In this document: one piece after another, positions 2,148-39,363 of the stretch
Layout of the letters: each line of letters begins with the position of its first letter
Position numbering within the stretch: position 1 is the first letter of the stretch
Origin: Planctomycetales bacterium 10988
Lineage (GTDB): Bacteria; Planctomycetota; Planctomycetia; Pirellulales; Pb10988
Assembly (NCBI GenBank): GCA_009664345.1
Contig: CP043547.1
Span: 5,856,709-5,920,708, forward strand
DNA length: 64,000 nt
Reading direction: 5' to 3'
Translations under genes and position numbers: made by a program
The notes under the pieces: generated by a model
The model's input: only the letters and a program-made list of their open reading frames with translations
Database searches by the model: none
What the model was told of the DNA's origin: nothing

Positions 2148-3221
2148 TTATTTTTGGAGGATTAGGAAGACTCCAACGCCAATAAATACTCCGAGTACAA
2201 GCACTCCGAGGAGTGCAGCCCAGAGGGGGATGCCGGCAATTTGAGCAGCCGGCTGGGAAGAACCGGAGACGGGGGAAGGGCGAGAAGTCGAGGAAGAACC
2301 GCTACCCGTTTCTACTGGTGTCCGAGAAGACTCATTGGGATGAGTGACCGAGGCTCCAGGCTTTTCTTCAGGGATTTGCTCCCCTTTTAAAGCTGCGGCA
2401 AAAGCATCCGCGGTCGCAAATCGATCGCTAATCTTTTTGTTGAGGGATTTCATAATCGCCTTCCCGACTTCCGTACTTGCCAGCTCGTCGGGAAGCGGGG
2501 GAACTTCTGCATTATTATGCATCATCATCGTTTGCACGGGATTGGAATCTTCGAAGGGGACCGTTCCCGTGAGGCATTCATAGAGCACAATTCCCAAAGA
2601 ATAGATGTCGCTGGCGGGGCTGAGGTCTTGCCCTCGGCATTGTTCGGGACTCATATAAACCGGCGTGCCGACGGTTCCCCCAGTGACGGTCAGCTTGGTC
2701 GTTTCCTTGAGGGCACCTTGTCCCCCTCCGACAATTTTCGCAATCCCGAAGTCGAAGACTTTGACAAAATCCTTTTGCAGAGCGTTGTTGCAAAGGAAAA
2801 TATTGTCCGGCTTTAGATCGCGGTGGACAATTCCTTTGTCGTGAGCTTCCTGCAACGAGTGCAATGTTTGGAGGGCAATGTGTTTCACTCGCGAAGGGTT
2901 CATGGAAACTTCCTCTTTCAGGACGACATCTAAAGGAGCCCCTTCCAGATATTCCATGACAATATAAAGGTCGCCTTCGCTGGTTTCGCCGAAGTCGAAG
3001 ATATCAATGGTATGCTCATTCCGCAGAACACTGGCGAGCTTTGCCTCCCGGCGGAAGCGGTGCCGCATAGCTTGGTCGGCTTTGACCCAAGGCAGAAGGA
3101 CTTTCAAGGCGACGGTTCGATCAATCTGAACCTGCTTCGCTAAAAAAACGGTACCAAAAGACCCTTGGCCGATCTCTGATTCCAGTTGATACTTTTCGTC
3201 TACGATATCGCCAACATTCAT
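2148..3221 (-). CDS. Membrane-anchored Ser/Thr protein kinase (PknB/PpkA-like)
   Basis: Eukaryotic-type protein kinase of 357 residues. Visible motifs are the Gly-rich loop GQGSFGTVF (18-26), K40 in VALKVL, the catalytic loop HRDLKPDN with D135 and N140, DFG at 157-159 and an activation segment ending GTPVYMSPEQC. A Ser/Pro/Thr-rich linker leads to one C-terminal membrane helix (about 332-355), so the kinase domain should face the cytoplasm with almost nothing outside. ATG 3221 is chosen because the domain begins right after it; an upstream in-frame TTG at 3248 is less likely. Co-location with an FHA protein and T6SS genes recalls the PpkA/Fha1 threonine-phosphorylation switch of Pseudomonas T6SS. 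Substrate and role here are inferred from context. Confidence 0.93.
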   Translation of the reverse strand: MNVGDIVDEKYQLESEIGQGSFGTVFLAKQVQIDRTVALKVLLPWVKADQAMRHRFRREAKLASVLRNEHTIDIFDFGETSEGDLYIVMEYLEGAPLDVVLKEEVSMNPSRVKHIALQTLHSLQEAHDKGIVHRDLKPDNIFLCNNALQKDFVKVFDFGIAKIVGGGQGALKETTKLTVTGGTVGTPVYMSPEQCRGQDLSPASDIYSLGIVLYECLTGTVPFEDSNPVQTMMMHNNAEVPPLPDELASTEVGKAIMKSLNKKISDRFATADAFAAALKGEQIPEEKPGASVTHPNESSRTPVETGSGSSSTSRPSPVSGSSQPAAQIAGIPLWAALLGVLVLGVFIGVGVFLILQK

Positions 3222-3640
3222 GGACCGACCACCAGCGAAGCGAGGCAAGAGAGCAAAACCACTTGCGACTCAAGCACATCGCGTACAAAAGGTTCGAATG
3301 ATCATTAAATTAGACAATGGCTTCCTAGCAGGAAGATCGGAAATTCCCAATCTACGCGAGATAGGAGATTTACGACGATCTGGCGAGGGAAGTTTCGAGT
3401 GTGTGGACAAAATGAATTGGCTTGGCACCTTGGAAGAGGTGGTTTGCTGATCTTCTCAATCTTTGACCACGGTCACTTGATGGAATGCAAATTAGTCTGC
3501 CAACTTTAGAATGGAATTGCAACCCGGTTCCTAGGAGCTAGAGGAGCAAAGGGACTTGAAAAACTAAGGAATTCACAGATTTTGGGAAGAGTAATCCCTA
3601 TTTTGATGGTGAAGAACCAGTATTTTTCTCTCTGTTTTTC
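3222..3640. other. Intergenic region, nothing recognised
   Basis: About 420 bases between the Ser/Thr kinase start and the stop of the scramblase-like gene. No supported gene, hairpin or repeat was seen. It presumably carries the kinase promoter. Confidence 0.5.
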
Positions 3641-4231
3641 TTATTCTTTCAATACCAAATCAATACACATGACCGCGGCGAAAATCAACTGACGAGCAAC
3701 ATTATCCGGAGGGACATTTGCTTCGATTTTCAACACATAATTGTCCGCGGAAGTAAAAAGTTCTTTCCCAACGCCTGCCCATTTCTTCGTTACCGAGGCA
3801 AACTCGATCCCGTCAGGGGTTACAAAGCGAAAATTCCACCCCGTCCAACTCCCTTTCAAGCTACAAATCGGTTGATCCGCAGCATCCGAGAGCGTAAACG
3901 AACCGCCGATGGAGAAGATTTTCTGCTTAAAACCGCCGATTTTTTGATTGTTTTCATCTAAGACGGTGACGTGCGAAGTAAAAAACGTAACTCCTCGGGT
4001 GACGCGGAGAATCGGCTCTCCAGTCGGAAGCCGGATTTGCACATCAAAAGGGGTATTCCGTTTGAAGTCAGTACAGCGAAGGAACTTTGTCGCAAATCCA
4101 AGGGTCTCTTCACTGCATTGAAGGATCTGCTCTCCGGTTTCAGGATCAAGCACGTCGTATTGATTGGAAGTCTTGATTAAATGTGCTCGCTCTTTAACGA
4201 AGAAGAGGTTTCGGTTAAGAACCTCGTGCAT
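3641..4231 (-). CDS. LURP-one/phospholipid-scramblase-like (Tubby C-terminal-like) protein
   Basis: Protein of 196 residues without signal peptide. The order of strands resembles the LURP-one-related/scramblase superfamily: an N-terminal 'FFVKE...L..SNQYDVLDPETGE' start, a central 'V.DENNQKIGGFKQKIFSIGGSFTLSD' hairpin, 'LKGSWTGWNFRF' and a hydrophobic last helix (RQLIFAAVMCIDLVL) that packs in the barrel of such folds. These proteins are small membrane-associated or lipid-responsive proteins; the bacterial members have no settled function. It lies between the TssM-like gene and the Ser/Thr kinase on the same strand, about 80 bases beyond the TssM-like stop, so it may be part of the T6SS transcription unit. 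Family assignment is from strand pattern and length, not from catalytic residues. Confidence 0.65.
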   Translation of the reverse strand: MHEVLNRNLFFVKERAHLIKTSNQYDVLDPETGEQILQCSEETLGFATKFLRCTDFKRNTPFDVQIRLPTGEPILRVTRGVTFFTSHVTVLDENNQKIGGFKQKIFSIGGSFTLSDAADQPICSLKGSWTGWNFRFVTPDGIEFASVTKKWAGVGKELFTSADNYVLKIEANVPPDNVARQLIFAAVMCIDLVLKE

Positions 4232-4314
4232 GAGAGGATTTCCTTCCTAATGATTTCAGTTTTTTTCGGAGTTGAAATTCCAAAAAAAATTGATCAATGC
4301 AAAATAAAGTCTTG

Positions 4315-6216
4315 TCAAATAAATGCCAAAACAAGGGCAGTGATGATCCCGATTCCCAAAAGTAAATCAAGGAAGAAAAGAAAATAGCCAACGCGAAGCT
4401 GGTACTTTTCTTTCTCTCGTGTCTCCGGGGTCCATTCGACTTCTTCTTGTTGATCGATCAGTTTATCAATCACGCCCTTGACGAATGCCTGGCGATCCGC
4501 GGTCTCTCCGATGGCGGCAAAATAGCAACCACTAAAGAGCATCAAGCTCGGCGGGTCGCTGACCTGTCGCGGATCGTAGCCATATCCAACGGCCAAAATC
4601 TGAGCCAAGCGACTTTGCAGATGACGTCGAATCTGACAAAGTAAGGCATAAAGTTTGGTATTTCCGGTCTTGCTCAAAGCCCCTCGTTCTCGGAAGAGGG
4701 CATAGATCCAAGTTTCAAAGGAGATACAAGCGTGGGCACAGAGGGCTTCCAAGTCGGCAGCCGTTGGAGGAGCCCACAGATCGAACCCTTTGCCGAAACG
4801 TTGGGCGGCGGCTCGATCTTGACCGACACGGCGAACCAGTTCACGGAAGCCGCTTTCGCCTTCCATGCCGACCACAAGTGCCATGACCGGGCAGCGAACC
4901 TGGCAGTTATTAACGATGGTTTGCAAGTCGGTTTTGACGGCCTTTTGAATTTCGGTTCCTTCCCGAGGGCCACGGCGAATTAAACCAAAGGGCAACAGCG
5001 TAAGCACCCCATTGACGGGGCTTAACGGCTCGCGTTTCCGTTTGAGTAATTGGCAGAGATATTCCAAGCGGCGAACTTGCTCGCTGGCTTCTTGTGCGGT
5101 TAGCATCACCGCTCGACGCGACATTGAAGGCATCGAGAGTGCTGCGAAATCGACACCGGAAGCATTGCTAGAATGACGACTCGGGGGACCCGGAGCATTC
5201 CCCGGCAGGGCGGCTGGGCTTTGTCCTTCGGTCGCTCCTAGAACCAGGGTGCCTGATCGAGAGGGCGGTTTTTCACCTGGAGTAGGAACGTTCGAACCTG
5301 GCGGCGGAGCGTTGCCGGGCGGATTTTGCCCTTGGCCGCCGGGTTGATTCATTAAAGCCGCTAAGCCGCTTCCTTCGCCACCCATGCCAGGCAAAACCAT
5401 CGTTCCAGTATTTGGTTTTTTGGGACCATCTTTACCACCTGGACTTCCGCTGATTTGCGGGGTGGGGCCACCAATTTCTGGAGGGGGTGGCAAGGCTGTC
5501 TCTTTGGCCGACCATGCGGCTTGAGGAACTTGCGTAATGTTACTTTCTCCGCGAGCATTCCCCGGGATGGGTCCCATCGGGGTGGCTTCCATTTCGCCCC
5601 CGGCGTCGACTTGCTCATCCTCTTTATGGGAAAGTTTGCTCAAGCAACTCGATTCACTACAGACAATATAGATCGCGTCGGGGTTGGCATACCAATGAAG
5701 GGCGGCGGGGCCTTGCGGAACATTTTCCACCCGAAAGCTCAATTGTGAGGCTTTGAATAGCGACTCCTCAAACGGTTCTCCTCGTGAGCCGACGACTAAA
5801 AAGACGGGGATCTCTTGAATGTCAAGGCCGTTCTTTTTGAGTTCGGCCAGTCCGGCTTTCCAAGCGTAATCGATATCGGGATGCGGGGAGAGATCGCCTT
5901 CGAGCCACATGCGAATGCTGTAATAAACCAGCACGGGAATGACGATCACCAACACCGTCAAGACGGCAATCCGAGGCCAACTCAAGGCATGTTGCCAAGG
6001 CACTCGGTAGATATCGTACATAAAATAAAGATTGACGCCGACGATACACCCCAGTAAGACAAAGCCCATCAGCAATGCCGCAAAGAAGGGGATCGAACAG
6101 CCCATCTCGGAGCCAGGTCGGCGAAAGAGGAGACGAAAAGGCAGGGTCAAATAGAACCACAGCCGCTTCATTCCATGAGCGATGCTGTTATACATCGCAT
6201 CGAGCATACTAAACAT
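4315..6216 (-). CDS. tssM: TssM/IcmF-like inner-membrane protein, shortened, without P-loop
   Basis: 633 residues, about half a typical TssM (usually over 1100). Two membrane hairpin helices (about 42-68 and 83-101) and a third at the extreme C-terminus (about 608-632) frame a cytoplasmic domain. The region IPVFLVVGSRGEPFE (about 136-150) lines up with the TssM P-loop region, but the GxxxxGK[ST] lysine and Ser/Thr are missing. A Pro/Gly/Ser-rich linker (about 230-355) follows. The segment with SPVNGVLTLLPF and CPVMALVVGMEGESGFRELV matches the TssM 'PINGVL' and 'vvFTKcD..pGF' motifs, again without nucleotide-binding residues. The periplasmic IcmF domain that binds TssJ is absent. It sits 16 bases beyond tssL, as expected for a TssL-TssM pair. 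Identification rests on order, topology and these echoes. Confidence 0.75.
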   Translation of the reverse strand: MFSMLDAMYNSIAHGMKRLWFYLTLPFRLLFRRPGSEMGCSIPFFAALLMGFVLLGCIVGVNLYFMYDIYRVPWQHALSWPRIAVLTVLVIVIPVLVYYSIRMWLEGDLSPHPDIDYAWKAGLAELKKNGLDIQEIPVFLVVGSRGEPFEESLFKASQLSFRVENVPQGPAALHWYANPDAIYIVCSESSCLSKLSHKEDEQVDAGGEMEATPMGPIPGNARGESNITQVPQAAWSAKETALPPPPEIGGPTPQISGSPGGKDGPKKPNTGTMVLPGMGGEGSGLAALMNQPGGQGQNPPGNAPPPGSNVPTPGEKPPSRSGTLVLGATEGQSPAALPGNAPGPPSRHSSNASGVDFAALSMPSMSRRAVMLTAQEASEQVRRLEYLCQLLKRKREPLSPVNGVLTLLPFGLIRRGPREGTEIQKAVKTDLQTIVNNCQVRCPVMALVVGMEGESGFRELVRRVGQDRAAAQRFGKGFDLWAPPTAADLEALCAHACISFETWIYALFRERGALSKTGNTKLYALLCQIRRHLQSRLAQILAVGYGYDPRQVSDPPSLMLFSGCYFAAIGETADRQAFVKGVIDKLIDQQEEVEWTPETREKEKYQLRVGYFLFFLDLLLGIGIITALVLAFI

Positions 6217-14542: not shown

Positions 14543-17236
<2,694 letters not shown>

Positions 17237-22702: not shown

Positions 22703-23485
22703 CTACCCTCCCAAGGGTTCGTTGGTTTGGAAATCCCAGCCGCGTGAGATGAGAGGGTCCGCCACGCCGCGTTCGGTTTGTGGCCAGTAAGTCATGGTGC
22801 AGGAGAGAAAACTAAAGGTAATAGTTTCGCTGGGTAAAATGGAATCTGCTTCCGTGTGCAGTTCATACCCACGAATCTTACATTCTTTGAAATCATATTG
22901 CAGAAAGATGCCGATTCCCCCCAGCTCTCGGAAGAAGAGCTTCACTTCCCCGAAAGTTTCGACTTTATTTTGCTCTTGCATCGAGGTGCTGCAATAAGCG
23001 TGAAACAGCGGGGGCGAAGAAAGATCGAGTTTCTTGTCAATTCTAAAGATATAGCTCTTCTTTCGTTCCTCCGGCGGCTTCTTCGCATGGTTTCGTCGTT
23101 GGACTTTTCGCTGTTCTCGCAATCTGCCGGCAATATCTTTGTAGCGGGCATCTTTGCCGAGTTCATCGCGAACCATCTGCTCCTGATCGCGGAGGCTCCC
23201 ATGTTTTGCGGTCCGCAGTTTGGAGAGCAAACCACTTGATCCGCCTTTATTTTTCTCGGAGAAGAATTTCAATTCGTCCATAACATTATCGAAGCTTTTC
23301 TTATTGGACGAACGTTCTTTGTCGGCATCCTCATAGGCCGCTTCCGCCAAGTTCCCTTGATCGCCAAATTCGAAAGAGAGAATTTCGATCGCTTTTTTCT
23401 CTTTAAATTCTTTATCAATCGTTTCCCCTTCGACCACGGGATCAAGGATTTGCATAAAGGCGTCGATTGTTCCTGAGCCAGCCAT
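22703..23485 (-). CDS. hcp: Hcp-family tube protein with charged insertion
   Basis: 260 residues from ATG 23485; an in-frame extension to 23710 overlaps the next Hcp gene and is rejected. The start MAGSGTIDAFMQILDPVVEG and 'KAIEILSFEFGD' match the Hcp beta-barrel opening, and the end (FHAYCSTSMQEQNKVETFGEVKLFFRELG, ETITFSFLSCTMTYWPQT) matches its closing strands. Between them lies a Lys/Arg/Glu-rich insertion of roughly 90 residues (about 45-140), absent from typical 160-180-residue Hcp. Hcp rings stack into the inner tube and carry small effectors; an insertion this size would protrude from the ring or fill its lumen. Third of three consecutive Hcp genes on the strand. Confidence 0.85.
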   Translation of the reverse strand: MAGSGTIDAFMQILDPVVEGETIDKEFKEKKAIEILSFEFGDQGNLAEAAYEDADKERSSNKKSFDNVMDELKFFSEKNKGGSSGLLSKLRTAKHGSLRDQEQMVRDELGKDARYKDIAGRLREQRKVQRRNHAKKPPEERKKSYIFRIDKKLDLSSPPLFHAYCSTSMQEQNKVETFGEVKLFFRELGGIGIFLQYDFKECKIRGYELHTEADSILPSETITFSFLSCTMTYWPQTERGVADPLISRGWDFQTNEPLGG

Positions 23486-23583
23486 GATGAACCTAAAATA
23501 GAAGTTGAGGAGGAATGAAGTATAAAGGAGAAACTTGCGGATAAGGGCCACTATCGAATGTGATTGATTTTGAACTGCGATGC

Positions 23584-24159
23584 CTAGGCGAATTTCCAAA
23601 TCCGTGCCAACGGGGAGCCCGCTCCGTCGGCGGTTTCCGGGACATACTCGAACGTGCAAGTTCGGAAATAGAAATCGATATCTTCTTCCGGTCGTTCCAC
23701 GCCAGTACACCGAATCGAATAGCTCAGCACCGAAACATCTTCAAATTCAAACGTTACGAAAGTATAAGGGGTTTTCGTCCCTTCCATCCGTCGCAAGATC
23801 ACCTTAGCTTTGGAAAAAGAGATCATCTGGGCAGGGTCGCTACTGCTGCAATAGGCTTGAAAAAGGGCGGGAGACGATTTATCCAAGTCCTTGGTGATGC
23901 TGAAAATGCGGACATCCTTCACCGAATCGCGGCCCATGCCCTCCACATCCGTACCCAGAAGATGGCCGGTTCCCCACTGTTCTTCCGCGTCGGTTCCTTC
24001 ATTTTCTACACGGAATTCTTCTTCCAGATCGGTCGAACAACCGAGGTCGAAATGTTCGATTTCGATGGCCCCTTCTTCCACGGCGGTTGCTTTCGTTTCG
24101 CCGGAAACTTGCTGTCCTCCCGTGAGAACCAAAAAACCTTCAAAGGTATAATCCGCCAT
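23584..24159 (-). CDS. hcp: Hcp-family T6SS tube protein
   Basis: 191 residues. Opens 'MADYTFEGFLVLTGGQQVSGETKATAVEEGAIEIEHFDLG' in two recognisable Hcp strands (Gly-E-[ST] turn then the acidic loop and 'IE...FDLG') and ends 'EDIDFYFRTCTFEYVPET', the Hcp closing hairpin. The middle 'FSITKDLDKSSPALFQAYCSS' is the usual helix region. Hcp is both tube subunit and secreted product. Paralogous to the genes on each side; the protein sequences differ clearly, so the copies are not a recent duplication. Confidence 0.93.
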   Translation of the reverse strand: MADYTFEGFLVLTGGQQVSGETKATAVEEGAIEIEHFDLGCSTDLEEEFRVENEGTDAEEQWGTGHLLGTDVEGMGRDSVKDVRIFSITKDLDKSSPALFQAYCSSSDPAQMISFSKAKVILRRMEGTKTPYTFVTFEFEDVSVLSYSIRCTGVERPEEDIDFYFRTCTFEYVPETADGAGSPLARIWKFA

Positions 24160-24368
24160 GTTTACGATCCTTCAACTGTGAGAGAAACCAAGGTAGCAAG
24201 GAGCCTCTCGACAATGAATGCATGTCAAAAGATGAGCCGAAACGTTGAAACCATTGAGGGCCAATAAACCTCCGAAAGTGAGGTTAGGGCTAAAAAAAAG
24301 GGCACACCGGAATGTGCCCCCATTTTTGACTCCCCACCTCGATCAGGACGATGGCCTTCGCTCCGCGA

Positions 24369-24911
24369 TTAACGCACGTCTTGCGTTTGGGCGTTTTTGA
24401 CCACGCTCCACATCGCGGGAATCGGGGCCAACAAGTTCCCGACGTCATCTTGCGGTTTGTACATCATTTTGATGGAACCGTATTCGAAGACCACGTTTTC
24501 GGTCGGGACATCGTCGCCCGAGGAACCGGCCCATTCGATACTTTTGACAGCGACCATCTTGAATTGATAGGCCAAGTAGCTGTCTTCTTCCAAGTTGGTG
24601 AACGTCCCGGTGGTCCCGGTTTTACGCAAGTAAAGGTCAACCGTTTCATAGTGACCACCGAGGCAGCAGCAAAGCACGAGCTTCGGCGAGGCACTATCAG
24701 TTTGTTTGGTGACATTGAATTCTTTGAATTCGGCCTTTCCAGCACCGGCACCACCCGACTTCGAGGTGATGTTCAAGGTGTTTTCCACTCCGAAGGAGAA
24801 TTCGCTGATTTCCAAACAACCAGTAGCGGTGGCGTCTTTGGTTTCACCTTCGATGTCCAACGAAGCACTGGTACCACTAGTAGTAAATTTCATAAACGCG
24901 TCGAATGCCAT
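24369..24911 (-). CDS. hcp: Hcp-family T6SS tube protein
   Basis: 180 residues, the standard size. Starts 'MAFDAFMKFTTSGTSASLDIEGETKD', continues 'CLEISEFSFGVENTL', has the helix region 'FNVTKQTDSASPKLVLCCCLGGHYETVDLYLRK' and ends 'ENVVFEYGSIKMMYKPQD', all in Hcp order. It is the first of three Hcp genes after tssC and so probably the main tube subunit. A run CCC at about residue 97-99 is unusual for Hcp. Confidence 0.93.
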   Translation of the reverse strand: MAFDAFMKFTTSGTSASLDIEGETKDATATGCLEISEFSFGVENTLNITSKSGGAGAGKAEFKEFNVTKQTDSASPKLVLCCCLGGHYETVDLYLRKTGTTGTFTNLEEDSYLAYQFKMVAVKSIEWAGSSGDDVPTENVVFEYGSIKMMYKPQDDVGNLLAPIPAMWSVVKNAQTQDVR

Positions 24912-25186: not shown

Positions 25187-26665
25187 TTAACCTTTTTGAG
25201 GTACTTCCGCGACGAGTCGCATCGAGGTCGATAAGGTTTCCAATTGGAAGTGCGGACGCAAGTAAGCGACCGCTTCGTACCAACCGGGTTTCCCTTCGAC
25301 TTCACGGACATCCACTCGGGCATCGGCCAAAGGACGTTGTGCCTTCAACTCATCCGGGGCCCCATTGGGATTGATCACATAATTGGAAATCCACTTGTTC
25401 AACCAATCCGAGCAGTCATTGACTTCCATGAAGGAGCCAATCTTGTCGCGAGCCATTACCTTTAGGTAGTGAGCAAATCGCGAAGTGCAAAGCAAGAGGT
25501 TGAATTTCGCGGAAAGTTCCGCATTCGCATTGGCATCGGGTTCGAAGTAAGTCTTCGGCTTTTGGCAGCTTTGCGTTCCCATGAAGACCGCAAAGTCATT
25601 CCCTTTACTATGAATCAAGGGAAGGAAGCCAAGGTTCGAAAGTTCGAACTCACGACGATCGCTAATGGCGATTTCGGTCGGGCATTTCATGGCGACATCG
25701 CCGTCATCGGTCGGGAAGGTATGCACGGGCAAGCCTTCGACTTTTCCGCCCCCTTCGACACCACGAGTACGGGCGAACCAGCCATCTTTGGCGAAGGCGT
25801 CCGTGACGCGAGCGGCGTAGGACCAAGCAGCACTCGTCCAAAGGTAATTTTCGTGCATCGTTCCATCGGCATCTTCTTCAAAGTTGAACTCTTCAACCGG
25901 ATTGAAGTTTTCCCCATAGGGAAGACGCCCGAGGGTACGCGGCAGGGTCAATGCGACATAGCGGGAATCTTCCGATTCGCGGAACGATTTCCAAGCGGCA
26001 TATTCGACGCTATCGAAGATTTTGGCCAAGTCACGCGGCTTACCGAGTTCAGTATAACTGTCCATACCGAAAATTTTCGGAGATGCCGAAGCACAAAGCG
26101 GGGCATGGCAAGAAGCGGCCAGACCCGACATATGTTTCAGTAAGCTGATGTCTTGAGCATTTCGTCCGAATTCGAAGTCGGTGACAAGAAGACCATAAGG
26201 TTGACCACCAAGCTGGCCGTATTCTTCTTCGTAGAACTTTTTGAAGCAGGCGGATTGATCGAATTCAACAGCCTTTTCAAAGTCCTTGACGAGTTCTTTT
26301 TTCTTGACATTCAAGACGCGAATCTTGAGTGCTTCACCGGTTTCCGTTTGATGAACGAAGTAATGGAAACCTCGCCAAGTCGATTCCAGCTGTTGGAAGT
26401 CTTCATTGTGAATAACTTCGTTGAGTTGGTCGGAGACCTTTTTATCGATTTGAGAAATCCAATATTTGATCGAGGCTTCGACGTCTTTGGAAACGGTCGA
26501 AGTCGACGACATAATTTGGTTGACAAACTCACCGAAGTATTCTTTATTCCGGTTTGCTTCGTCTTCACTCTGGGGCCGCGTCGCAGCAATGATTTCATCG
26601 AGGAAATCAGTGGATTCTTCTGCTGCTTGAGATTGCGGGGCAGAGGATTCTTCGGCACTCGCCAT
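25187..26665 (-). CDS. tssC: T6SS sheath large subunit TssC
   Basis: 492 residues, standard length. Hallmarks are 'ISQIDKKVSDQLNEVIHNEDFQQLESTWRGFHYFV' (about 70-105), 'GGQPYGLLVTDFEFGR', 'APLCASASPKIFGMDSY', 'LTLPRTLGRLPYGENFNPVEEFNFEE' and the C-terminal 'KPGWYEAVAYLRPHFQLETLS' segment. TssC interlocks with TssB to form the contractile sheath. Same strand as tssB (145 bases upstream) and the three Hcp genes. Confidence 0.98.
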   Translation of the reverse strand: MASAEESSAPQSQAAEESTDFLDEIIAATRPQSEDEANRNKEYFGEFVNQIMSSTSTVSKDVEASIKYWISQIDKKVSDQLNEVIHNEDFQQLESTWRGFHYFVHQTETGEALKIRVLNVKKKELVKDFEKAVEFDQSACFKKFYEEEYGQLGGQPYGLLVTDFEFGRNAQDISLLKHMSGLAASCHAPLCASASPKIFGMDSYTELGKPRDLAKIFDSVEYAAWKSFRESEDSRYVALTLPRTLGRLPYGENFNPVEEFNFEEDADGTMHENYLWTSAAWSYAARVTDAFAKDGWFARTRGVEGGGKVEGLPVHTFPTDDGDVAMKCPTEIAISDRREFELSNLGFLPLIHSKGNDFAVFMGTQSCQKPKTYFEPDANANAELSAKFNLLLCTSRFAHYLKVMARDKIGSFMEVNDCSDWLNKWISNYVINPNGAPDELKAQRPLADARVDVREVEGKPGWYEAVAYLRPHFQLETLSTSMRLVAEVPQKG

Positions 26666-26809: not shown

Positions 26810-27343
26810 TTATTCGTCTGAATCTTCGCTTTCCGCAGCTGCGGCTTTGGGTTCAACGCCGAGGCTTTTGGCCAAGGTTTCTCGTTTTTCGGTGTTGTTC
26901 ATGATTTCGCCCAGCATCTCTTCCAGCTCGTCGTTGCCTTCCATTTTGCTGAGGAGTTGATTGAGGCGATCTCGCATGTCAAGCAATTCCTTGAGCGGTT
27001 TGACTTGGCGGGCGACATTGGCCGGCTCGAAGTCATCCATACTCTTGAAATTGAGTTCCACATTCATGCGAGTGTCGTCATCGGTCAACTTATTATCAAC
27101 CTTGAAAGCGACACGCGGCGCCGATTTTTCCAACACGGCGTTGAAATTGTCGCGATCGATCGGGACGACCTTACGATCCTTCATAGGTTTGAGTTTGTCT
27201 TTCGGACTTCCGGACAGGTCGGCAAGTACCCCGACGACGAAAGGAAGTTCGACTTTTCGCATCGCCCCCCCTGTCTCAACATCGTAGGTAACCTGTACAC
27301 GTGGTCTTCGAACGCGGTCTAACTTGTGCTGCATGGAGGACAT
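26810..27343 (-). CDS. tssB: T6SS sheath small subunit TssB
   Basis: 177 residues from ATG 27343 (MSSMQHKLDRVRRPRVQVTY); the open frame extends upstream but that part has no homology to TssB. The family core is complete: 'KVELPFVVGVLADLSGSP' at about 27-44, 'LKPMKDRKVVPIDRDNFNAVLEK', 'LNFKSMDDFEPANVARQV' and a C-terminal acidic tail. TssB partners TssC in the sheath and presents the ClpV-binding helix. It follows a sigma-70-like promoter and leads the tssB-tssC-hcp operon. Confidence 0.97.
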   Translation of the reverse strand: MSSMQHKLDRVRRPRVQVTYDVETGGAMRKVELPFVVGVLADLSGSPKDKLKPMKDRKVVPIDRDNFNAVLEKSAPRVAFKVDNKLTDDDTRMNVELNFKSMDDFEPANVARQVKPLKELLDMRDRLNQLLSKMEGNDELEEMLGEIMNNTEKRETLAKSLGVEPKAAAAESEDSDE

Positions 27344-27494
27344 CCAGAATCTCCTGTCCAGAGAGCGACCAAAAAGAAAGTGTCTAACGTGATACTCGAA
27401 ACGTGCCTCTTGCGGGCGGAAACAATTTTCCAAATGCCGATAAGTCTTTCACGGCTAGTAAGTTGGAAAAAGTGTCTGTAGGGGAATGAGGTTG

Positions 27495-27834: not shown

Positions 27835-30800
27835 TTAGTCGTCATCTTCATCGTCGTCATCTTGAATGCCGATTTCACGCCACATCTCTTCGATGACGCT
27901 GCCGTCGCGAATGAGTCGTTTCATCAATTTCGGGAAGGGCATTCGGCCAAGTTCGACGGCTTTGAGCAAAAGATAAGGAATCGGGCTATGAGGTTCCAGC
28001 TTTTGCAGGGCCGTTGCCGCTTTATGGAGCTGGTTGTAGATGTCTTCCCGGGTCGCTCCGACTTGTTGTCGTTGAATCACCGAAGCGGCTTGGGCCGGAG
28101 AGAGCATTTGTGCCGGCATGCCGACGCCTTGTTCGCTCATCGGTTGCATCTCGGTTCCTCCAGCTTCAGCGGCTTCTTCCTCTTCATCAGGTCCCAGCTT
28201 CTGCTCGATTTGTAGTAACAATCCGCGGCAATCGTTCAACGCAGGCCCCAACGCGGTGAAGCCTGGTGCTTCGTACATTAACTTTGCTTCCATCACCGTT
28301 TTTAGGAGTTGCAACTCTTTCACGGCATTAGTCGCATCGGCAATATTGTTTTTGAGATATTGTCGAGGGGTGTTGAAGACGGCTTGTTCGAACTCTTCGG
28401 AAGAGACATGGCCTTTCCCTTCCTGGCCGTTTCTCCAGTCTTGCCAGCTATAGGTCGTGCCATCCGGCAGCATCAGCACAGGAACGGAGTGAATCGTGAT
28501 CGGGAAAAGAGCCCCTTTGCTTTCATCGTCCAGCCAATTGTAAGGACCGGATCGCATATCGAGGTCTTCCTCTTCGTCTTCCATTTCCGGACGAAGGCGA
28601 TCCCAGCATTTTTCAAAAAGCAGTCGGCTGAGATGGAAGCCATCGCGAAGACCAGCGAAGCCATGGGCTTTGGTGAGGGCCTCCATCAAGCGGACCACGA
28701 TATTCAGGTCTTTCGTCGTCTCGGTGAGGGTCTCAATACAAAGCGTTTCAATCCCTTCCCAATCCGCCTTCTTCGGCTCTTTCGGACGGCGAGGATCATC
28801 GGCATCATAGAGTTCCGGATTGACCTCCTTCCGCATCTCGTCCAGATTTTCGCGGACATCAAAGGGGATCATGTCCCCAGAGGGGTCCTCTCCAGGGATC
28901 GGTTTCAAAAGGGTATTGAAGTCGAGAATCGGATCGCTTCCCCCTTCGTAGGGCTGATAGTCGTCCCCTAAGTCTGCGGAGTCAGAAGCATCGGATGCCA
29001 TGATTTCACTTTCCTCGTCTTCTTGGCCTAGGTCATCGTCACTGGTTTCGAATGAATCGTCGTCATCGTCAGCATCATCGGTGTCGAGATCGAAGTCCGA
29101 GCTAGCAGCTAAGTCCTCGTCGGAGTCCTCTTCATTACTTACCTCGTCATCCTCGTCGTCCGAATCGAAGCTGAAATCGTCGTCGCTCTCGTCGGAGTCG
29201 TCTGATTCTTCGTCGTCATCATCGGTATCAAAATTGAAATCGTCGTCGGACTCGTCGTCTTCCTCATCGCTGGAGGAATCTAGATCGAGGTTGAGATCCG
29301 AATCGCTCTCGTCATCATCATCGTCGTCATCATCTGTGTCGAAATTGAAGTCATCATCAGAGCTGTCGTCGTCATCGTCGTCGGTGTCGAAGTTGAAATC
29401 GTCGTCCGAGCCATCGTCGTCGTCATCGTCTCCGAAGCTGAAGGGATCGTCATCGTCGTCGTCATCATCGCCGAAGCTGAAGTCATCATCATCGTCGTCC
29501 CCGAAGCCGAAATCATCGTCATCGTCGTCGGAGTTGAGATCACTGTAGGCCATCCGATGGGCTAAGCCGCTATCGATTTCGCTCCGTTTGGAATACCGAG
29601 CCACGAGTTTATCGTACTCTTTTTCCTCTTCGTCGTCGGAGTCGTATTCGTCTTCTGGGGTGATTTCTCGAAAAGCCATGCGACGGGCGAGGCCGTCATC
29701 GACTTCCGGGTTCTTCGCATATTTCTTGGCAAGCGTCTTGATGTCCGGCGTTTCCTCTTCGTCCTCGTCGTCGTCATCATCGAAGCTGAAATCATCGTCA
29801 TCATCGTCGTCGTTCAGGTCGCTGTGGGCCATCCGATGAGCGAGACCTTCGTCGACTTCCTTGTCCTTGGAATAGTCTCGGACAAGCTGCTTCATCGAGG
29901 GTTTTGGTTTCTCTTCTGCATCGTCGTCCTCGTCATCATCGTCACCGAATCCGAAGTCATCATCGTCATCGTCTTCGTCGGCGTGCAGATCACTCCAGGC
30001 AAGGCGATGGGCGAGGCCGTCGTCGATCTCGCGGTCTTTGGTGTAATCGCGGACAAGTTGCTTCATGGAAGGCTTCGGCTTTTCTTCCTCTTCCTTGTCC
30101 TCGTCGTCGTCATCGTCATCGTCATCGTCGAACCCGAAACCGAAGTCATCGTCATCATCGTCGTCGTTCAGGTCGCTATGTGCCATCCGATGGGCGAGAC
30201 CTTCATCGACTTCAGAATCTTTGAGATACTTTTTCTTGAGGGTTTTAAGGTCTTTTTCCTCATCGTCATCGTCGTCATCGCCGAAGTCGTCGTCATCGTC
30301 ATGGGTGTCGCTGTAGGCCATGCGGTGGGCAAGGCCAGCCTCGACTTCCGGGTTTTGAGAATAGCGTTTGACGAGGTCTTCGTAACTTTCCTTCGGTTCT
30401 TCCGGTTCGTCGTCCTCGTCATCATCATCGGAATCAAAGCTGAAGTCATCGTCGCTGCTGTCCGAGTCGTCCTCGTCGTCTGAGTCGAAGCTGAAATCGT
30501 CATCGCTATCATCGTCGGAGCTACTTAGGTCGTCGTCATCGTCATCGAAACTAAAGGAGTCGGAGCTGCCATCCTCAGAGTCATCCCCGTCATCGGAACT
30601 GCCGACATCCAGATCGAAGTCACTCCCGGAATCGTCGTCGCTGTCTGCATCGTCATCATCATCGGAATCGAAGTTGAAGTCGTCGTCGCTGGCATCGTCA
30701 TCGTCGTCCGTTCCTAAATCCATATCCAGGTCGGAACTACTATCGTCATCGTCATCGCTGTCGAAATTGAAATCGTCGTCCGAACTATCGTCATCGTCGT

Positions 30801-32388
30801 CGGTATCGAGGTCCATATCACTCGACGAATCATCATCGTCATCATCCAGGTCCATGTCGCTGGAGGAATCGTCGTCATCGTTGCTATCGAAGGAGTCATC
30901 TTCAAGCGGTTCGTTTTCGGATTCCCATTTGCCTTCCAGGCCGGGTTGTTTTTCCGAGAGCGAGCCGATGGTGCTGAGTTCGATCGCTTGTTCGCCCCGG
31001 ACTCCCAAGATCGGCATGAAGCCCAGGGCGGAGGTTTCTTTCGCTTGTTTGGTCGTGATTCGCTGTTCGACGGAAAGCCCAACGAGTTCATCCTCTTCAT
31101 TGCGATAAACTGTCTGGGGCATTTCCGCGAGATGCTTCAGGCCGTTCGGTTTGAAGTCCCAGCGGCTGTTGGCATATTGCATCCCCAGCAGGGCCGCACA
31201 GGCGAAGCTACCCGAGGCCCAGAGAAAAGAACGGCTCAGGTCCGAGGATTGGCATTCTTCAAAGGAAAAAAGTTCACTCGGTTCGAAGTTTTCGCCGTAA
31301 GAGGGTCGGATCAAGAAACGGGGAGAAACCAGGCCGAGATAGGCCGATTCGGGCAACTCTCGGAGTTGGTCCCAAGCTTCGCCGACTTCGCCTTCCCATT
31401 CAAATCCGCTGGCTAAAACCCGAGGGTGCATGCCTGCGAGGAATGGAGCATTGACCGATTGAGCGATCTTGGCCATTCGCCCCAGCAAGGCGGCATGGGC
31501 CGGGAACGTATCGAATTGATACGCCGAGACCAGCATTGCCCAAGGCTGCCCATCCACCGAATTGACCGCTTTTTCGACCAAAAGCTTATAGACGCCGGTT
31601 TCTTCGAGGCTTTCGTGGCGAGCCAGGTCAGCAGCGAACTCCGCCGCGCTGAGATCAATGGCGATGACCTCGACCTTTTCCGCTTTGATGATTCGCCGTG
31701 TCAGCCAATCAATGGATCGCCAAGCGGCTTCGACACTGGCAAAGTCCGGGTGGTGCAGCACCTGCCGAATGAGTTGTTGGATGCCCAAAGAACAGGCAGT
31801 GACGAGGGCTTCATCATCGGCATCTGGGGGAACAAAAGGACCGATCGCTCTAGCCATCAAGGTCGAAAGTCCGACTTCATCCGCATCGGGATCGAGAGCG
31901 GGTTTCGCCTCGTAACTTGCGAGTTCTTCCCATTCTTGAGCCGCTGGAATCCAATCTCCGCGTGACTGCAAAAGCGGGGGGAATTCGCTATGTTCTTCTC
32001 GCCAAGAACGGACGCGATCTTGCCAGTCGGAGTTTCCCCCTTGCAGGCGATCATGGAGGGCGAAGAGTTCGTCAAAGAGTTCGACTTCTTTGAACAGCCG
32101 ATCCGGATGGAATTCCTCCATCTCTTCGAACGTCAACTCTTCTTGGGCACCTCCTAAAAGTGGTATTTGGATGGTGACTTCGAGTTCTTCTAAGGCTTCG
32201 TCGATTTCATGGGGAAGAAAACGAAAGAGTTTCATCCCGGCGATTTCATCGGAGTCGGCAAAGACGCCACGGCTGGACCGACCGGAGAAATCCCCCAGCA
32301 CCGCGACGCGAAAAGGTCCTTCCGGGTCGCCTTGACCGCGAAAGGCTGCTCCTGACTCCATTTTGCCGAAAGAAAGATCGAGCCCCAT
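27835..32388 (-). CDS. TssB-like/TssC-like/TssA fusion with giant Asp/Ser-rich linker
   Basis: 1517 residues. Residues about 25-115 resemble the TssB/VipA core (FRVAVLGDFSGR, then EEMEEFHPDRLF). Residues about 185-480 resemble TssC: 'IQQLIRQVLHHPDFASVEAAWRSIDWL', 'GQPWAMLVSAYQFD', 'APFLAGMHPRVLAS', 'SPRFLIRPSYGENFEPSELFSFEE'. Residues about 494-1130 are dominated by Asp and Ser and contain six helical repeats around GLAHRMA. From about 1148 the ImpA/TssA domain appears (LLKPIPGEDPSGD, DWEGIETLCIETLTETTKDLNIVVRLMEALTKAHGF-type helices), with no other tssA in the window. TssA normally primes and caps the growing tail; the fusion would tether sheath-like domains to the cap. It is first in the minus-strand gene series, divergent from a methyltransferase. 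Domain calls are firm for TssA and TssC-like, weaker for TssB-like. Confidence 0.88.
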   Translation of the reverse strand: MGLDLSFGKMESGAAFRGQGDPEGPFRVAVLGDFSGRSSRGVFADSDEIAGMKLFRFLPHEIDEALEELEVTIQIPLLGGAQEELTFEEMEEFHPDRLFKEVELFDELFALHDRLQGGNSDWQDRVRSWREEHSEFPPLLQSRGDWIPAAQEWEELASYEAKPALDPDADEVGLSTLMARAIGPFVPPDADDEALVTACSLGIQQLIRQVLHHPDFASVEAAWRSIDWLTRRIIKAEKVEVIAIDLSAAEFAADLARHESLEETGVYKLLVEKAVNSVDGQPWAMLVSAYQFDTFPAHAALLGRMAKIAQSVNAPFLAGMHPRVLASGFEWEGEVGEAWDQLRELPESAYLGLVSPRFLIRPSYGENFEPSELFSFEECQSSDLSRSFLWASGSFACAALLGMQYANSRWDFKPNGLKHLAEMPQTVYRNEEDELVGLSVEQRITTKQAKETSALGFMPILGVRGEQAIELSTIGSLSEKQPGLEGKWESENEPLEDDSFDSNDDDDSSSDMDLDDDDDDSSSDMDLDTDDDDDSSDDDFNFDSDDDDDSSSDLDMDLGTDDDDDASDDDFNFDSDDDDDADSDDDSGSDFDLDVGSSDDGDDSEDGSSDSFSFDDDDDDLSSSDDDSDDDFSFDSDDEDDSDSSDDDFSFDSDDDDEDDEPEEPKESYEDLVKRYSQNPEVEAGLAHRMAYSDTHDDDDDFGDDDDDDEEKDLKTLKKKYLKDSEVDEGLAHRMAHSDLNDDDDDDDFGFGFDDDDDDDDDEDKEEEEKPKPSMKQLVRDYTKDREIDDGLAHRLAWSDLHADEDDDDDDFGFGDDDDEDDDAEEKPKPSMKQLVRDYSKDKEVDEGLAHRMAHSDLNDDDDDDDFSFDDDDDEDEEETPDIKTLAKKYAKNPEVDDGLARRMAFREITPEDEYDSDDEEEKEYDKLVARYSKRSEIDSGLAHRMAYSDLNSDDDDDDFGFGDDDDDDFSFGDDDDDDDDPFSFGDDDDDDGSDDDFNFDTDDDDDDSSDDDFNFDTDDDDDDDDESDSDLNLDLDSSSDEEDDESDDDFNFDTDDDDEESDDSDESDDDFSFDSDDEDDEVSNEEDSDEDLAASSDFDLDTDDADDDDDSFETSDDDLGQEDEESEIMASDASDSADLGDDYQPYEGGSDPILDFNTLLKPIPGEDPSGDMIPFDVRENLDEMRKEVNPELYDADDPRRPKEPKKADWEGIETLCIETLTETTKDLNIVVRLMEALTKAHGFAGLRDGFHLSRLLFEKCWDRLRPEMEDEEEDLDMRSGPYNWLDDESKGALFPITIHSVPVLMLPDGTTYSWQDWRNGQEGKGHVSSEEFEQAVFNTPRQYLKNNIADATNAVKELQLLKTVMEAKLMYEAPGFTALGPALNDCRGLLLQIEQKLGPDEEEEAAEAGGTEMQPMSEQGVGMPAQMLSPAQAASVIQRQQVGATREDIYNQLHKAATALQKLEPHSPIPYLLLKAVELGRMPFPKLMKRLIRDGSVIEEMWREIGIQDDDDEDDD
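29000..30905 (-). repeat. Asp/Ser-rich coding repeat tract
   Basis: Nearly 1.9 kb of GAC/GAT/TCG-type triplets encoding the acidic linker of the fusion protein. Six imperfect ~50-75-residue units lie between 29543 and 30396, each a helix ending in GLAHRMA-[YHW]-SDL followed by a D4-D9 run and often F-G-F-G or F-S-F. Outside them the units are short DDDDxSSxDFNFDSD blocks. Confidence 0.9.
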
Positions 32389-35529: not shown

Positions 35530-38500
35530 ATGGATTGGTTCTCTCGTTTTTCTTGCGGCGATCATCATCAATCCACAAAAGCTTCACCCTCTAGAGATAC
35601 TCCTCTCGATGTCGAGACTCTGGAAAAACGCTGCCTTCTGGCGGCGGACCCAATGTTCATTGATATCAATCTATTTAGTGCCTCCTCATCGCCCAATTTG
35701 ATCACCGAGGTCAATGGCACGGCCTTCTTTTCTGCCACGGATGAAGTCAGTGGTGGCGAGCTTTGGATGAGCAACGGAGAAAGCGGGGGCACGCTTTTAG
35801 TCAAAGATATTGTTCCTGGGCTGGATGGCTCTGGTCCACAAAAGTTGATCAATGTTAGCGGGACTTTATTTTTCGCTGCCGATACTGCGTCCTCTGGCCA
35901 AGAACTTTGGAAAACCGATGGGACGTACGCGGGCACGCAACTCGTCAAGGATATCAATCCCGGCTCTGGTAGCGCGTATCTGGACTACTTCACGAATGTG
36001 AATGGGACGCTCTTTTTCAGAGCGGTGGTAGCGAGCTACGGCTATGAAATGTGGAGGTCCGATGGGACGAGCGCAGGCACGCAACTCGTCAAAGACCTTC
36101 GCCCTGGCACGAGTGGTTCGTATCCAAGAGTCCCCATCAACCTCAATGGAATGTTGTTATTTCGGGCCAATGACGGAACCTACGGGTATGAACTTTGGAC
36201 CTCGGATGGAACCAGCGCGGGAACATCCTTGGTCGCGGACCTCAATCCAAATGGAAATAGTTCGCCACTTGAAGTCACAAATGTCAATGGGACGGCTTTT
36301 TTCCAGGCGACAAATGGAGGGTCCGGGTTCGAGTTATTTAAAAGCGATGGGACTTGCGCGGGCCCGGAACTAGTTCGAGATATTAACCCTGGCTCAGGTA
36401 CTTCTTTTGTTCGAGAGCTAGCCAATATCAACGGCACTCTCTTTTTTAGAGCCTATCAATCGACTTACGGATATGAATTGTGGAAGAGCGACGGCACCAG
36501 CGGGGGGACGGTTCTGGTTTCGGACATCCGCACAGGGAGTGCAAGCTCGAATATTGATGATCTGACCGAAGTGAATGGCACGGCGTTTTTCACAGCCGTC
36601 CTAGGCACGACGGGCCGCGAACTTTGGATGAGCGATGGCACCAGCATGGGGACAGTGTTGGTCAAAGACCTCTTTTCAGGGGCCGGCAGCTCGGGAGTCA
36701 CGTCTTTGACCAATGTGAATGGGACCTTGTTCTTTACGACCAATGATGGAACTTACGGAACCGAGGTATGGAAAACAGACGGAACCAGCATGGGAACCGT
36801 TATGGTGAAGGACATTCGAAGCGGGGCATTGAGTTCGGTGCCAAACTCTCTTGCGAATGTGAATGGGACGCTCTTCTTCCGAGCCAATGATGGCTGCTAT
36901 GGCAGCGAACTTTGGAAGAGCAACGGTTACTCCGCCGGCACGGTTTTAGTGAGAGACATCAATCAAGGAACCCTCGATTCCGGTGCTGATGACTTTACCT
37001 ATTTAAAAGGGAAGACGATTTTCACCGCGAACGATGGTACCTACGGCACCGAATTATGGATCACCGATGGAACCACGATCGGAACGCAACTCTTGAAAGA
37101 TATCCGCCCTGGCTCCTATGGTTCTGAACCGGGGAACTTTGTCTATGTGAACGGGATTGTCTTCTTCACCGCTAACGATGGGAACTATGGAACCGAGCTA
37201 TGGAAGACCAATGGGACATATGCCGGGACTCAACTTGTGAAGGACATCCGGACTGGTACCGAGAGTTCTTCTCCCTCAGAATTAATTAATTTGAACGGCA
37301 CTCTCTTCTTCCGTGCATTTGAGGAGACCTATGGTTACGAGCTGTGGATGAGTGATGGGACTTCCGCAGGTACCCAGCTCGTCAAAGATATCCGAGTTGG
37401 CTCGAATAGCTCAAGCGTGCAAAAATTAACAAATGTGAACGGAACGCTTCTCTTCCAGGCCAATGGTGGGAGTTATGGGGCCGAACTATGGATGAGTAAT
37501 GGGACTTCCGCCGGTACGCAACTGGTCAAAGACATTCGAGTTGGCTCCAATGGTTCGAACCTAAATTACCTCATCAATGTGAATGGCACTCTTTTCTTCC
37601 ATGCAAATGATGGGACCTATGGATTCGAACTTTGGAAGAGTGACGGGACGTACGCGGGAACGCAACTCGTCAAGGATGTCGTGTCCGGCTCCGGCAATTT
37701 CGATTTGTCAGAATTAACGAATGTGAATGGCACTCTCTTCTTCCGAGGGTTTGAATCAACCTATGGATTCGAACTTTGGAAGAGTGACGGAACTTCGGCG
37801 GGAACCCAACTTGTTAAAGACATTTTGACTGGTTCCGGTTCGTCGATTCCAAGGTATCTAACGAATGTGAACGGAACGCTCTTCTTCCAAGCGAATACTT
37901 CAACTTACGGGAGAGAACTATGGAAGAGTGACGGAACTTCGGCGGGAACCCAGCTTGTCAAAGACATCCGAACTGGTTCCACGCATGCAGACCCAGAGTA
38001 CTTTACCAATGTGAACGGCACCCTCTTTTTCTCCGCTAACGACGGAACCTACGGGGTTGAACTGTGGATGACCGACGGGACGAGTATCGGGACCCAACTG
38101 GTGGAAGACATTCGTGTGGGCAGTGGTTTCGCCTTGCCATCTTCCTTGGCAAATGTCGAGAGAACCCTCTTCTTTAAGGCCAGGGATGGAATTCATGGAC
38201 ATGAACTTTGGTTCCTCTGCACGACTGAAGATGTGCCGCTCATCGTCACGGGAACGGATGCAAGCGAGCAAGGGACCGTGCGGGTCTTCGATGCGACCGG
38301 GACTGAGATTGATAGTTTTAATCCTTTTGGAACCTTCACAGGGGGCGTTCGCGTCGCGACCGGTGATATCAATGGCGACGGTATCCTCGACATCGTCGCT
38401 GCCGCCGGACCAGGAGGCGGCCCTCGAATCAGTGTTTATGATAGTGAAACGGGCGAACTGATCACCGGGAGTTTGGTGGATTTCTATGCCTTCGATCCCT

Positions 38501-39363
38501 TCTTCACAGGCGGAACCTATATCGCCGTGGGGGATGTGAACGATGATGGCTTCGATGATATCATCGCCGCCGCTGGTCCAACCGAGACTGCCGAACCCCA
38601 TGTGCGTGTCTTTAGCGGTTTGACCGGGGAGATCCTCACCGAGTTCTATGCCTATAGCCTTGACTTCCACGGTGGGGTTCGCGTCGCCGCTGGAGATATT
38701 GATGGAGACGGCGATGCAGAAGTGATTGTTGCTCCCGGCCCCGGTGGTGGACCGCATATTCGCGTCTTTGATGGACTGACCGGCCTGCAAATGACCGGGG
38801 CCGCTACGAATTTTTATGCGTATGCTTCTGATATCACCACCGGTTTTTATGTCGCTGCCGGCGATGTCGATAACGATGGCCTTGATGATATCATCACCTC
38901 CCCCGATGCCGGCGGTGGTCCTCATGTGAAGGTCTTTAGCTCCGCGGATGCCTCCGTTCTTCAAGAGTTCTATGCTTATGATCCTACCTTTATTGGCGGG
39001 GTTCGGGTTGCCTCGTTTGATTTGAATGCCGATGGGTTCGCCGATATCCTCACCGTACCGGGTTCGCCGGGTGGACCGCACACCAGAGCCTTTAGCGGGG
39101 TGGATTTGTCGGACCTCGCCAACTTCTATTCTGGCCCGTCGACGAACTTTGATGGTCTCTTCGTCGCTGGTGGGATTAGTAAAGTGCCTCTGGAAAATGC
39201 CGTGCCTGCAAGTTTCGAATTCAGCGTAAAAGAGCCTGACACTCCAGAAGACATCAATCCTCAAACCACTTCGTCGAAGAAATCCTGGTATGAGGATGTC
39301 GATGAATTTTTCCAATCCGCGGAAGAAATCAATAAGCTCTTTAGTGGATTAGGAATTAAATAG
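35530..39363 (+). CDS. Giant surface protein with 18 ELWxxDGT repeats and FG-GAP propeller
   Basis: 1277 residues from ATG 35530, with AGGAGAAG seven bases upstream. The N-terminus holds the planctomycete 'LEKRCLLAADP' motif (residues about 31-41), a variant of the LExRxLL element found at the start of many large secreted planctomycete proteins. Residues about 75-895 are 18 near-regular units of about 45 residues with the core ELW.SDGTSAGTQLVKDI, expected to form beta-propeller blades. Then come five FG-GAP/VCBS-type units (VRVATGDINGDGILDIV and similar) with DxNxDG calcium-binding loops. The C-terminus is short and helical. Probably a cell-surface adhesin or matrix protein. The repeat DNA (about 35755-38215) is prone to unit gain and loss. 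Confidence 0.92.
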   Translation: MDWFSRFSCGDHHQSTKASPSRDTPLDVETLEKRCLLAADPMFIDINLFSASSSPNLITEVNGTAFFSATDEVSGGELWMSNGESGGTLLVKDIVPGLDGSGPQKLINVSGTLFFAADTASSGQELWKTDGTYAGTQLVKDINPGSGSAYLDYFTNVNGTLFFRAVVASYGYEMWRSDGTSAGTQLVKDLRPGTSGSYPRVPINLNGMLLFRANDGTYGYELWTSDGTSAGTSLVADLNPNGNSSPLEVTNVNGTAFFQATNGGSGFELFKSDGTCAGPELVRDINPGSGTSFVRELANINGTLFFRAYQSTYGYELWKSDGTSGGTVLVSDIRTGSASSNIDDLTEVNGTAFFTAVLGTTGRELWMSDGTSMGTVLVKDLFSGAGSSGVTSLTNVNGTLFFTTNDGTYGTEVWKTDGTSMGTVMVKDIRSGALSSVPNSLANVNGTLFFRANDGCYGSELWKSNGYSAGTVLVRDINQGTLDSGADDFTYLKGKTIFTANDGTYGTELWITDGTTIGTQLLKDIRPGSYGSEPGNFVYVNGIVFFTANDGNYGTELWKTNGTYAGTQLVKDIRTGTESSSPSELINLNGTLFFRAFEETYGYELWMSDGTSAGTQLVKDIRVGSNSSSVQKLTNVNGTLLFQANGGSYGAELWMSNGTSAGTQLVKDIRVGSNGSNLNYLINVNGTLFFHANDGTYGFELWKSDGTYAGTQLVKDVVSGSGNFDLSELTNVNGTLFFRGFESTYGFELWKSDGTSAGTQLVKDILTGSGSSIPRYLTNVNGTLFFQANTSTYGRELWKSDGTSAGTQLVKDIRTGSTHADPEYFTNVNGTLFFSANDGTYGVELWMTDGTSIGTQLVEDIRVGSGFALPSSLANVERTLFFKARDGIHGHELWFLCTTEDVPLIVTGTDASEQGTVRVFDATGTEIDSFNPFGTFTGGVRVATGDINGDGILDIVAAAGPGGGPRISVYDSETGELITGSLVDFYAFDPFFTGGTYIAVGDVNDDGFDDIIAAAGPTETAEPHVRVFSGLTGEILTEFYAYSLDFHGGVRVAAGDIDGDGDAEVIVAPGPGGGPHIRVFDGLTGLQMTGAATNFYAYASDITTGFYVAAGDVDNDGLDDIITSPDAGGGPHVKVFSSADASVLQEFYAYDPTFIGGVRVASFDLNADGFADILTVPGSPGGPHTRAFSGVDLSDLANFYSGPSTNFDGLFVAGGISKVPLENAVPASFEFSVKEPDTPEDINPQTTSSKKSWYEDVDEFFQSAEEINKLFSGLGIK

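Follow-up and report, generated by a model that had tools for sequence, protein, structure and literature searches.

A type VI secretion system (T6SS) component of new architecture is encoded within the 64,000-nucleotide stretch of Planctomycetales bacterium 10988 DNA analyzed here (the window). The minus-strand open reading frame at positions 27835-32388 specifies a protein of 1517 amino acids, in which a TssB-like domain and a domain resembling the N-terminal domain of TssC (together, TssBC-N) are followed by a 660-residue linker and then by TssA. With a probability that we place at roughly 0.55, this linker serves as a flexible multivalent docking array connecting TssA to a pseudo-sheath subunit that does not polymerise. 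The parts of the fusion, and the neighboring genes most relevant to its interpretation, are as follows:

14543..17236, minus strand: ClpV/TssH ATPase (TIGR03345, 1290 bits)
25187..26665, minus strand: canonical TssC (TIGR03355, 670.8 bits)
26810..27433, minus strand: canonical TssB, adjoining the fusion gene (TIGR03358, 198.4 bits)
27835..28938, minus strand: TssA part of the fusion, residues 1151-1517 plus stop (ImpA_N domain and short-TssA C-terminal region)
28939..30918, minus strand: acidic disordered linker, residues 491-1150 (from composition and predicted disorder, pLDDT mostly 30-45)
30919..32388, minus strand: pseudo-sheath part, residues 1-490 (Pfam PF05591, 1e-06, and PF05943, 1e-42), with the TssB-like domain at residues 23-116 and the TssC N-terminal domain at residues 202-466

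The pseudo-sheath part does not qualify as a sheath subunit by family models. It scores 127.4 bits against the NCBIfam TssC model TIGR03355 (cut-off 271.5) and 26.9 bits against the TssB model TIGR03358 (cut-off 97.25). PDB matches of the TssBC-N profile are nevertheless to TssB and TssC chains only, and when a stand-alone relative was modeled (mean pLDDT 80.8), its best structural match was TssC. A Pfam scan of the fusion found no PF18945 (VipB_2), the gp25-like C-terminal domain of TssC, which is present in the cluster's own TssC. This domain is the element that links true sheath subunits. Because it is absent, ordinary polymerisation would not be expected, judging from known sheath structures. 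The C-terminal part, by comparison with models of the same kind, is a TssA: it scores 198.2 bits against TIGR03363 (cut-off 160.85), the sole NCBIfam acceptance in the fusion, and carries an ImpA_N domain (PF06812, residues 1161-1287, 1.8e-24). In an AF2 model of residues 1-970 the pseudo-sheath part is ordered and the linker is disordered, showing only weak, low-confidence helices.

The fusion gene resides in a cluster that also encodes TssB, TssC, three Hcp proteins, TagJ/ImpE, TssE, TssF, TssG, ClpV, TssK, DotU/TssL, and a short IcmF. The N-domain of this ClpV matches 3zri/3zrj, 4uqw, and 4hh5/4hh6. The N-terminal helix of the canonical TssC, STDFLDEIIAATRPQ, is of the ClpV-binding LLDEII type when typed after PMC4239648, and the same report calls the combination of TagJ with such a TssC, as seen in this cluster, exceptional. 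The three Hcp-like genes, which differ from each other, lie in a row (22703-24911), and one is longer and carries an insert. Downstream of the cluster (2148-6216) are genes for a short IcmF-N protein, a scramblase-family protein (PF03803), and a Ser/Thr kinase. Elsewhere in the window, a 1277-residue open reading frame (35530-39363) contains 144-bp tandem repeats (37280-38031).

A first-pass annotation had described the middle of the fusion as an extremely acidic Asp/Ser-rich linker with six GLAHRMA-type repeats followed by Asp runs and FGFG or FSF patches, and all of these features are real. The 660 residues include 266 Asp (40%), 60 Glu, 80 Ser, and 39 Lys plus Arg, for a net charge of about -287. 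The Asp codons are a mixture of GAC (153) and GAT (113), and therefore the Asp stretches are not simple codon runs. A Ser-rich open reading frame of 182 residues on the plus strand (29000-29548) is only the antisense of the linker and does not count as evidence of a gene. The six units are located as follows:

30304..30387, minus strand: repeat 1, SYEDLVKRYSQNPEVEAGLAHRMAYSDT, with GLAHRMA at 30316-30336
30169..30252, minus strand: repeat 2, DLKTLKKKYLKDSEVDEGLAHRMAHSDL, with GLAHRMA at 30181-30201
29986..30069, minus strand: repeat 3, SMKQLVRDYTKDREIDDGLAHRLAWSDL, with GLAHRLA at 29998-30018
29815..29898, minus strand: repeat 4, SMKQLVRDYSKDKEVDEGLAHRMAHSDL, with GLAHRMA at 29827-29847
29662..29745, minus strand: repeat 5, DIKTLAKKYAKNPEVDDGLARRMAFREI, with GLARRMA at 29674-29694
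29536..29619, minus strand: repeat 6, EYDKLVARYSKRSEIDSGLAHRMAYSDL, with GLAHRMA at 29548-29568

The core of these units is under purifying selection. Successive units are spaced 42-61 residues apart, and the aligned 30-residue unit has eight invariant columns. Pairwise synonymous differences (pS) between units, computed over 28 codons, range from 0.57 to 0.83, while in the 11-codon core EVDEGLAHRMA the mean pS is 0.54 versus a pN of 0.13. Synonymous sites are thus nearly saturated and the core has been kept, and therefore the units are old and selected; these values rule out both chance and a recent expansion of a DNA repeat. The unit was not found in any other protein of the 6.65-Mb genome. 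A profile run over 392 genomes of the phylum gave convincing matches in the source genome only, with the others being short stretches at E values of 0.003-0.008, and so GLAHRMA is not a widespread motif.

Relatives of the fusion carry a different sequence at the homologous place. A search of 97 related genomes recovered, within the taxonomic order, four further fusions of TssBC-N, linker, and TssA, as well as several stand-alone TssBC-N proteins. The four fusions come from two families (G013/G030 and G015/G032), and their linkers contain, by pattern, 7-9 copies of LDPELAALLGD or LDLDAMLASLGDD. Stand-alone proteins usually end in 1-4 copies of DPELAALLADL or DLDALLASL, although a Singulisphaera protein has seven. 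Overall, the relatives share the motif [DE]L[DA]ALLA[SGD]L (for example, DLDALLASL or DPELAALLADL) in 1-9 copies, mostly at the protein end. Its positions are near-invariant across phyla, and in the stand-alone family the motif leucines and one alanine do not vary. The motif is constant while the acidity of the linker or tail varies, and among the fusions two linkers (L037 and L038) are rich in Pro, Ala, and Glu. In the model of a stand-alone relative the tail is disordered and the last motif is helical (block pLDDT ~58-72).

The window protein belongs to this clade of motif-tailed pseudo-sheath proteins. A tree built from 95 TssBC-N domains groups all 42 proteins with a motif-bearing tail or linker together (SH-aLRT 99) and places the five TssA fusions in one subclade (SH-aLRT 92), in which the window protein has the longest branch. 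Position and tree make homology of the linker well supported. Homology of each single GLAHRMA unit to the family motif is likely: MAFFT, unprompted, sets the units opposite the DPELAALL units, and a PEVD-like lead is common to both, but the motif matrix of the family gives low scores to five of the six, and the units are far diverged. The GLAHRMA units resemble a version of the family motif that has been changed and multiplied locally. The expectation that close relatives would conserve GLAHRMA thus failed for the letters themselves and held for a motif at the homologous position. The TssA fusion is confined to those Pirellulales among 396 genomes of the order and 396 of the class. Outside them, the closest TssA is a separate protein, once encoded near a motif-tailed TssBC-N gene (L236).

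Several other features of the wider family were observed. The source genome has a second, tailless TssBC-N (L048:9028-10860; G000 C1:5399384-5400853) beside Hcp and VgrG genes and away from the main cluster. The TssBC-N of Ruegeria conchae (L248:12357-15767) has an acidic N-terminal extension of ~530 residues with many DLDDLL/LSDLA-like units, and also a C-terminal DPELAALLADL. In several T6SS loci from different phyla, a gene for a voltage-gated-type ion channel adjoins the motif-tailed TssBC-N gene or lies close by (L041:774-1778, L042:10840-11787, L071:2658-3602, L073:8438-9781, L114:7092-8144, and L248:10769-11626). The assignment is based on PF00520 matches in L071 and L248 and on similarity for the rest; L071, L073, and L114 have TLESWS at the filter position.

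When every T6SS family in the loci was scanned with a matrix built from TssBC-N tails, clear enrichment was seen only in FHA (TagH) proteins or linkers (median 9.5 versus -0.3 in shuffled sequences) and in TssBC-N; TssC N-termini gave no match. Among plasmid records, the FHA motif (GDFLDDLLG) is present in five of five checked systems with TssBC-N and in none of 12 T6SS records without it, counts that are not phylogenetically independent because the five positives are all Rhodobacterales. One further plasmid record, lacking both TssC and TssBC-N, falls outside these counts. None of the 11 Planctomycete genomes tested has a T6SS FHA protein, which rules FHA out as a universal partner of the motif. 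The motif may resemble the CheY-binding N-terminus of FliM, a resemblance that we set aside.

The first candidate partner is ClpV. The N-terminal helices of TssC bind the N-domain of ClpV, with an affinity in the range of tens of micromolar (PMC5048182; see also PMC4239648), Fha1 is required for focal recruitment of ClpV1 in P. aeruginosa (PMC3953482), and in many loci the TssBC-N gene directly follows clpV. An initial identity count for the ClpV N-domain (0.39 versus 0.72) seemed a striking sign of coevolution; however, adding an outgroup showed that the whole lineage evolves fast. Branch lengths in the window lineage are 0.59 versus 0.34 for the ClpV N-domain and 0.19 versus 0.10 for TssC. 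Because TssC and other parts are fast as well, ClpV is not singled out by its rate.

We propose that the fusion operates in the following manner. The sheath look-alike part (TssB plus the TssC N-domain) would sit at the sheath end or baseplate without polymerising, because the gp25-like linking domain is missing. TssA proteins elsewhere form rings and dock on the sheath via their N-terminal domain (for TssA Nt1 on its cognate sheath, see PMC11106082), and the C-terminal part of the fusion may do likewise. Between these parts, six short helices, the GLAHRMA units diverged from [DE]L[DA]ALLA[SGD]L, would be carried by a disordered, acidic chain that would maintain their solubility, stretch them out, and space them. 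The helices would act in trans on a T6SS partner, with low affinity at each single site and a raised avidity together. For this partner the N-domain of ClpV, which also accepts a short helix of TssC, is the first candidate, and the interaction would keep ClpV on standby at the end of the sheath. We propose ClpV as the partner only tentatively, with the pseudo-sheath itself as the second candidate. It is rather unlikely that the full scheme holds, namely that these proteins are an undescribed class of T6SS adaptors (non-polymerising sheath mimics, fused to TssA in Pirellulales, with multivalent ClpV-docking helices) that couple sheath-end binding to ClpV-driven disassembly through a docking code shared with the FHA scaffold.

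Other explanations must be weighed against the docking array. ClpV is generally present in T6SSs, although the FHA motif is missing where TssBC-N is missing. Thus, the receptor may be particular to TssBC-N systems, and may possibly be TssBC-N itself. In one such arrangement, the motifs would bind the pseudo-sheath domains of neighboring copies; the protein, along with FHA in systems that have it, would then self-associate as a cluster or ring located at the end of the sheath. A TssBC-N receptor predicts the observed restriction of the FHA motif, and would be consistent with the strong divergence of both domain and motif in the window protein and with the very high motif copy number reached in Ruegeria. 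Nevertheless, tailless TssBC-N proteins are common, and the AF2 monomer of a stand-alone relative has no confident docking of the tail helix, and we regard self-association as unlikely. The same model and that of residues 1-970 of the fusion both lack confident docking of the motif within the chain, and intramolecular docking was rejected. Also considered was DUF6931 (PF22011), a small protein encoded beside VgrG in many motif-tailed loci (L037, L043, L071, L073, L087, L089, L092, L097, L103, L114, and L248). It is found in 10 of the 11 Planctomycete genomes tested and is missing only from the source genome, whose motif is diverged. As a universal partner, DUF6931 fits Planctomycetes but fails in Rhodospirillales and Burkholderiales, as canonical motifs occur without it in most Rhodospirillales/Acetobacteraceae systems and in those of Piscinibacter and Eleftheria; it is very improbable that it is the partner.

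The linker might instead require no specific receptor, being a charged spacer or entropic spring whose units act as stickers or phase-separation elements. The first-pass annotation had raised a spring, and the extreme acidity, the predicted disorder, and the freedom with which linker length and composition vary among relatives would suit one. However, the purifying selection on the core and the near-invariance of the motif across phyla point to specific contacts, and relatives reach the same layout without a high Asp content, all of which makes a mere spring decidedly improbable. It is very improbable that the Asp/Ser tract binds calcium, another early suggestion, or is a phosphorylation platform for the cluster's Ser/Thr kinases. 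By pattern, the linker has 55 sites of the form [ST]xx[DE] and numerous S[DE][DE] segments, and a Ser/Thr kinase gene is located at 2148-3248. In contrast, the 660 residues contain no RTX motif (GGxGxD nonapeptide pattern) and only two weak EF-like matches, within an Asp-rich stretch, and so the linker does not appear to be a calcium binder of the RTX or EF-hand kind. Moreover, the acidic composition gives way to Pro/Ala/Glu-rich linkers in relatives of the same architecture, which argues against cation binding as a general role. The docking-helix reading, also raised at first pass, is supported by the selection on the units and by the short helix-type motif kept at the same place in all clade relatives.

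These proteins merit attention for several reasons. The retention of ClpV near sheaths and the capping of sheath ends are still debated, and a widespread sheath-like protein with a tail motif shared with the FHA scaffold offers a concrete, testable docking code. Public databases annotate TssBC-N as "type VI secretion system contractile sheath large subunit," and surveys that count T6SS genes with TssC models can mistake TssBC-N for a second TssC. In the open-access literature searched, tssC duplications are mentioned in one plasmid survey, and neither the TssB-TssC-N fusion family nor its motif is described, which bears out the early remark that no T6SS component with this element had been reported.

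Comparison with known systems clarifies what is distinctive. The fusion shares with TssB/TssC (VipA/VipB) the folds of the TssB core and of the N-terminal domain of TssC, but it has both in one chain, falls far under the family cut-offs, lacks the gp25-like domain, and is encoded beside a canonical TssB and TssC. Its C-terminal part shares the ImpA_N domain and C-terminal region of short-type TssA (TIGR03363; class C, baseplate type, PMC6745524); unlike the TssA proteins described in the literature examined, it is joined to a pseudo-sheath part via a 660-residue motif-bearing linker. The repeats recall the ClpV-docking helix of TssC (LLDEII type, with its H1-type counterpart): in each case the helix is short and amphipathic, lies in a flexible part of a T6SS protein, and has an acidic lead as well as a pair of aliphatic residues one turn beyond the first. 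However, the six units are repeated and occur in another protein, the family motif matrix has no match in TssC N-termini, and binding of ClpV by the units is putative. Finally, TagJ/HsiE1 (ImpE) recruits ClpV via TssB, and in our preferred reading the fusion would act likewise as a sheath-bound ClpV recruiter. The two are unrelated in fold and sequence, as TagJ has a TPR/ImpE fold (PMC4239648), and an ImpE gene is present in the window alongside the fusion.
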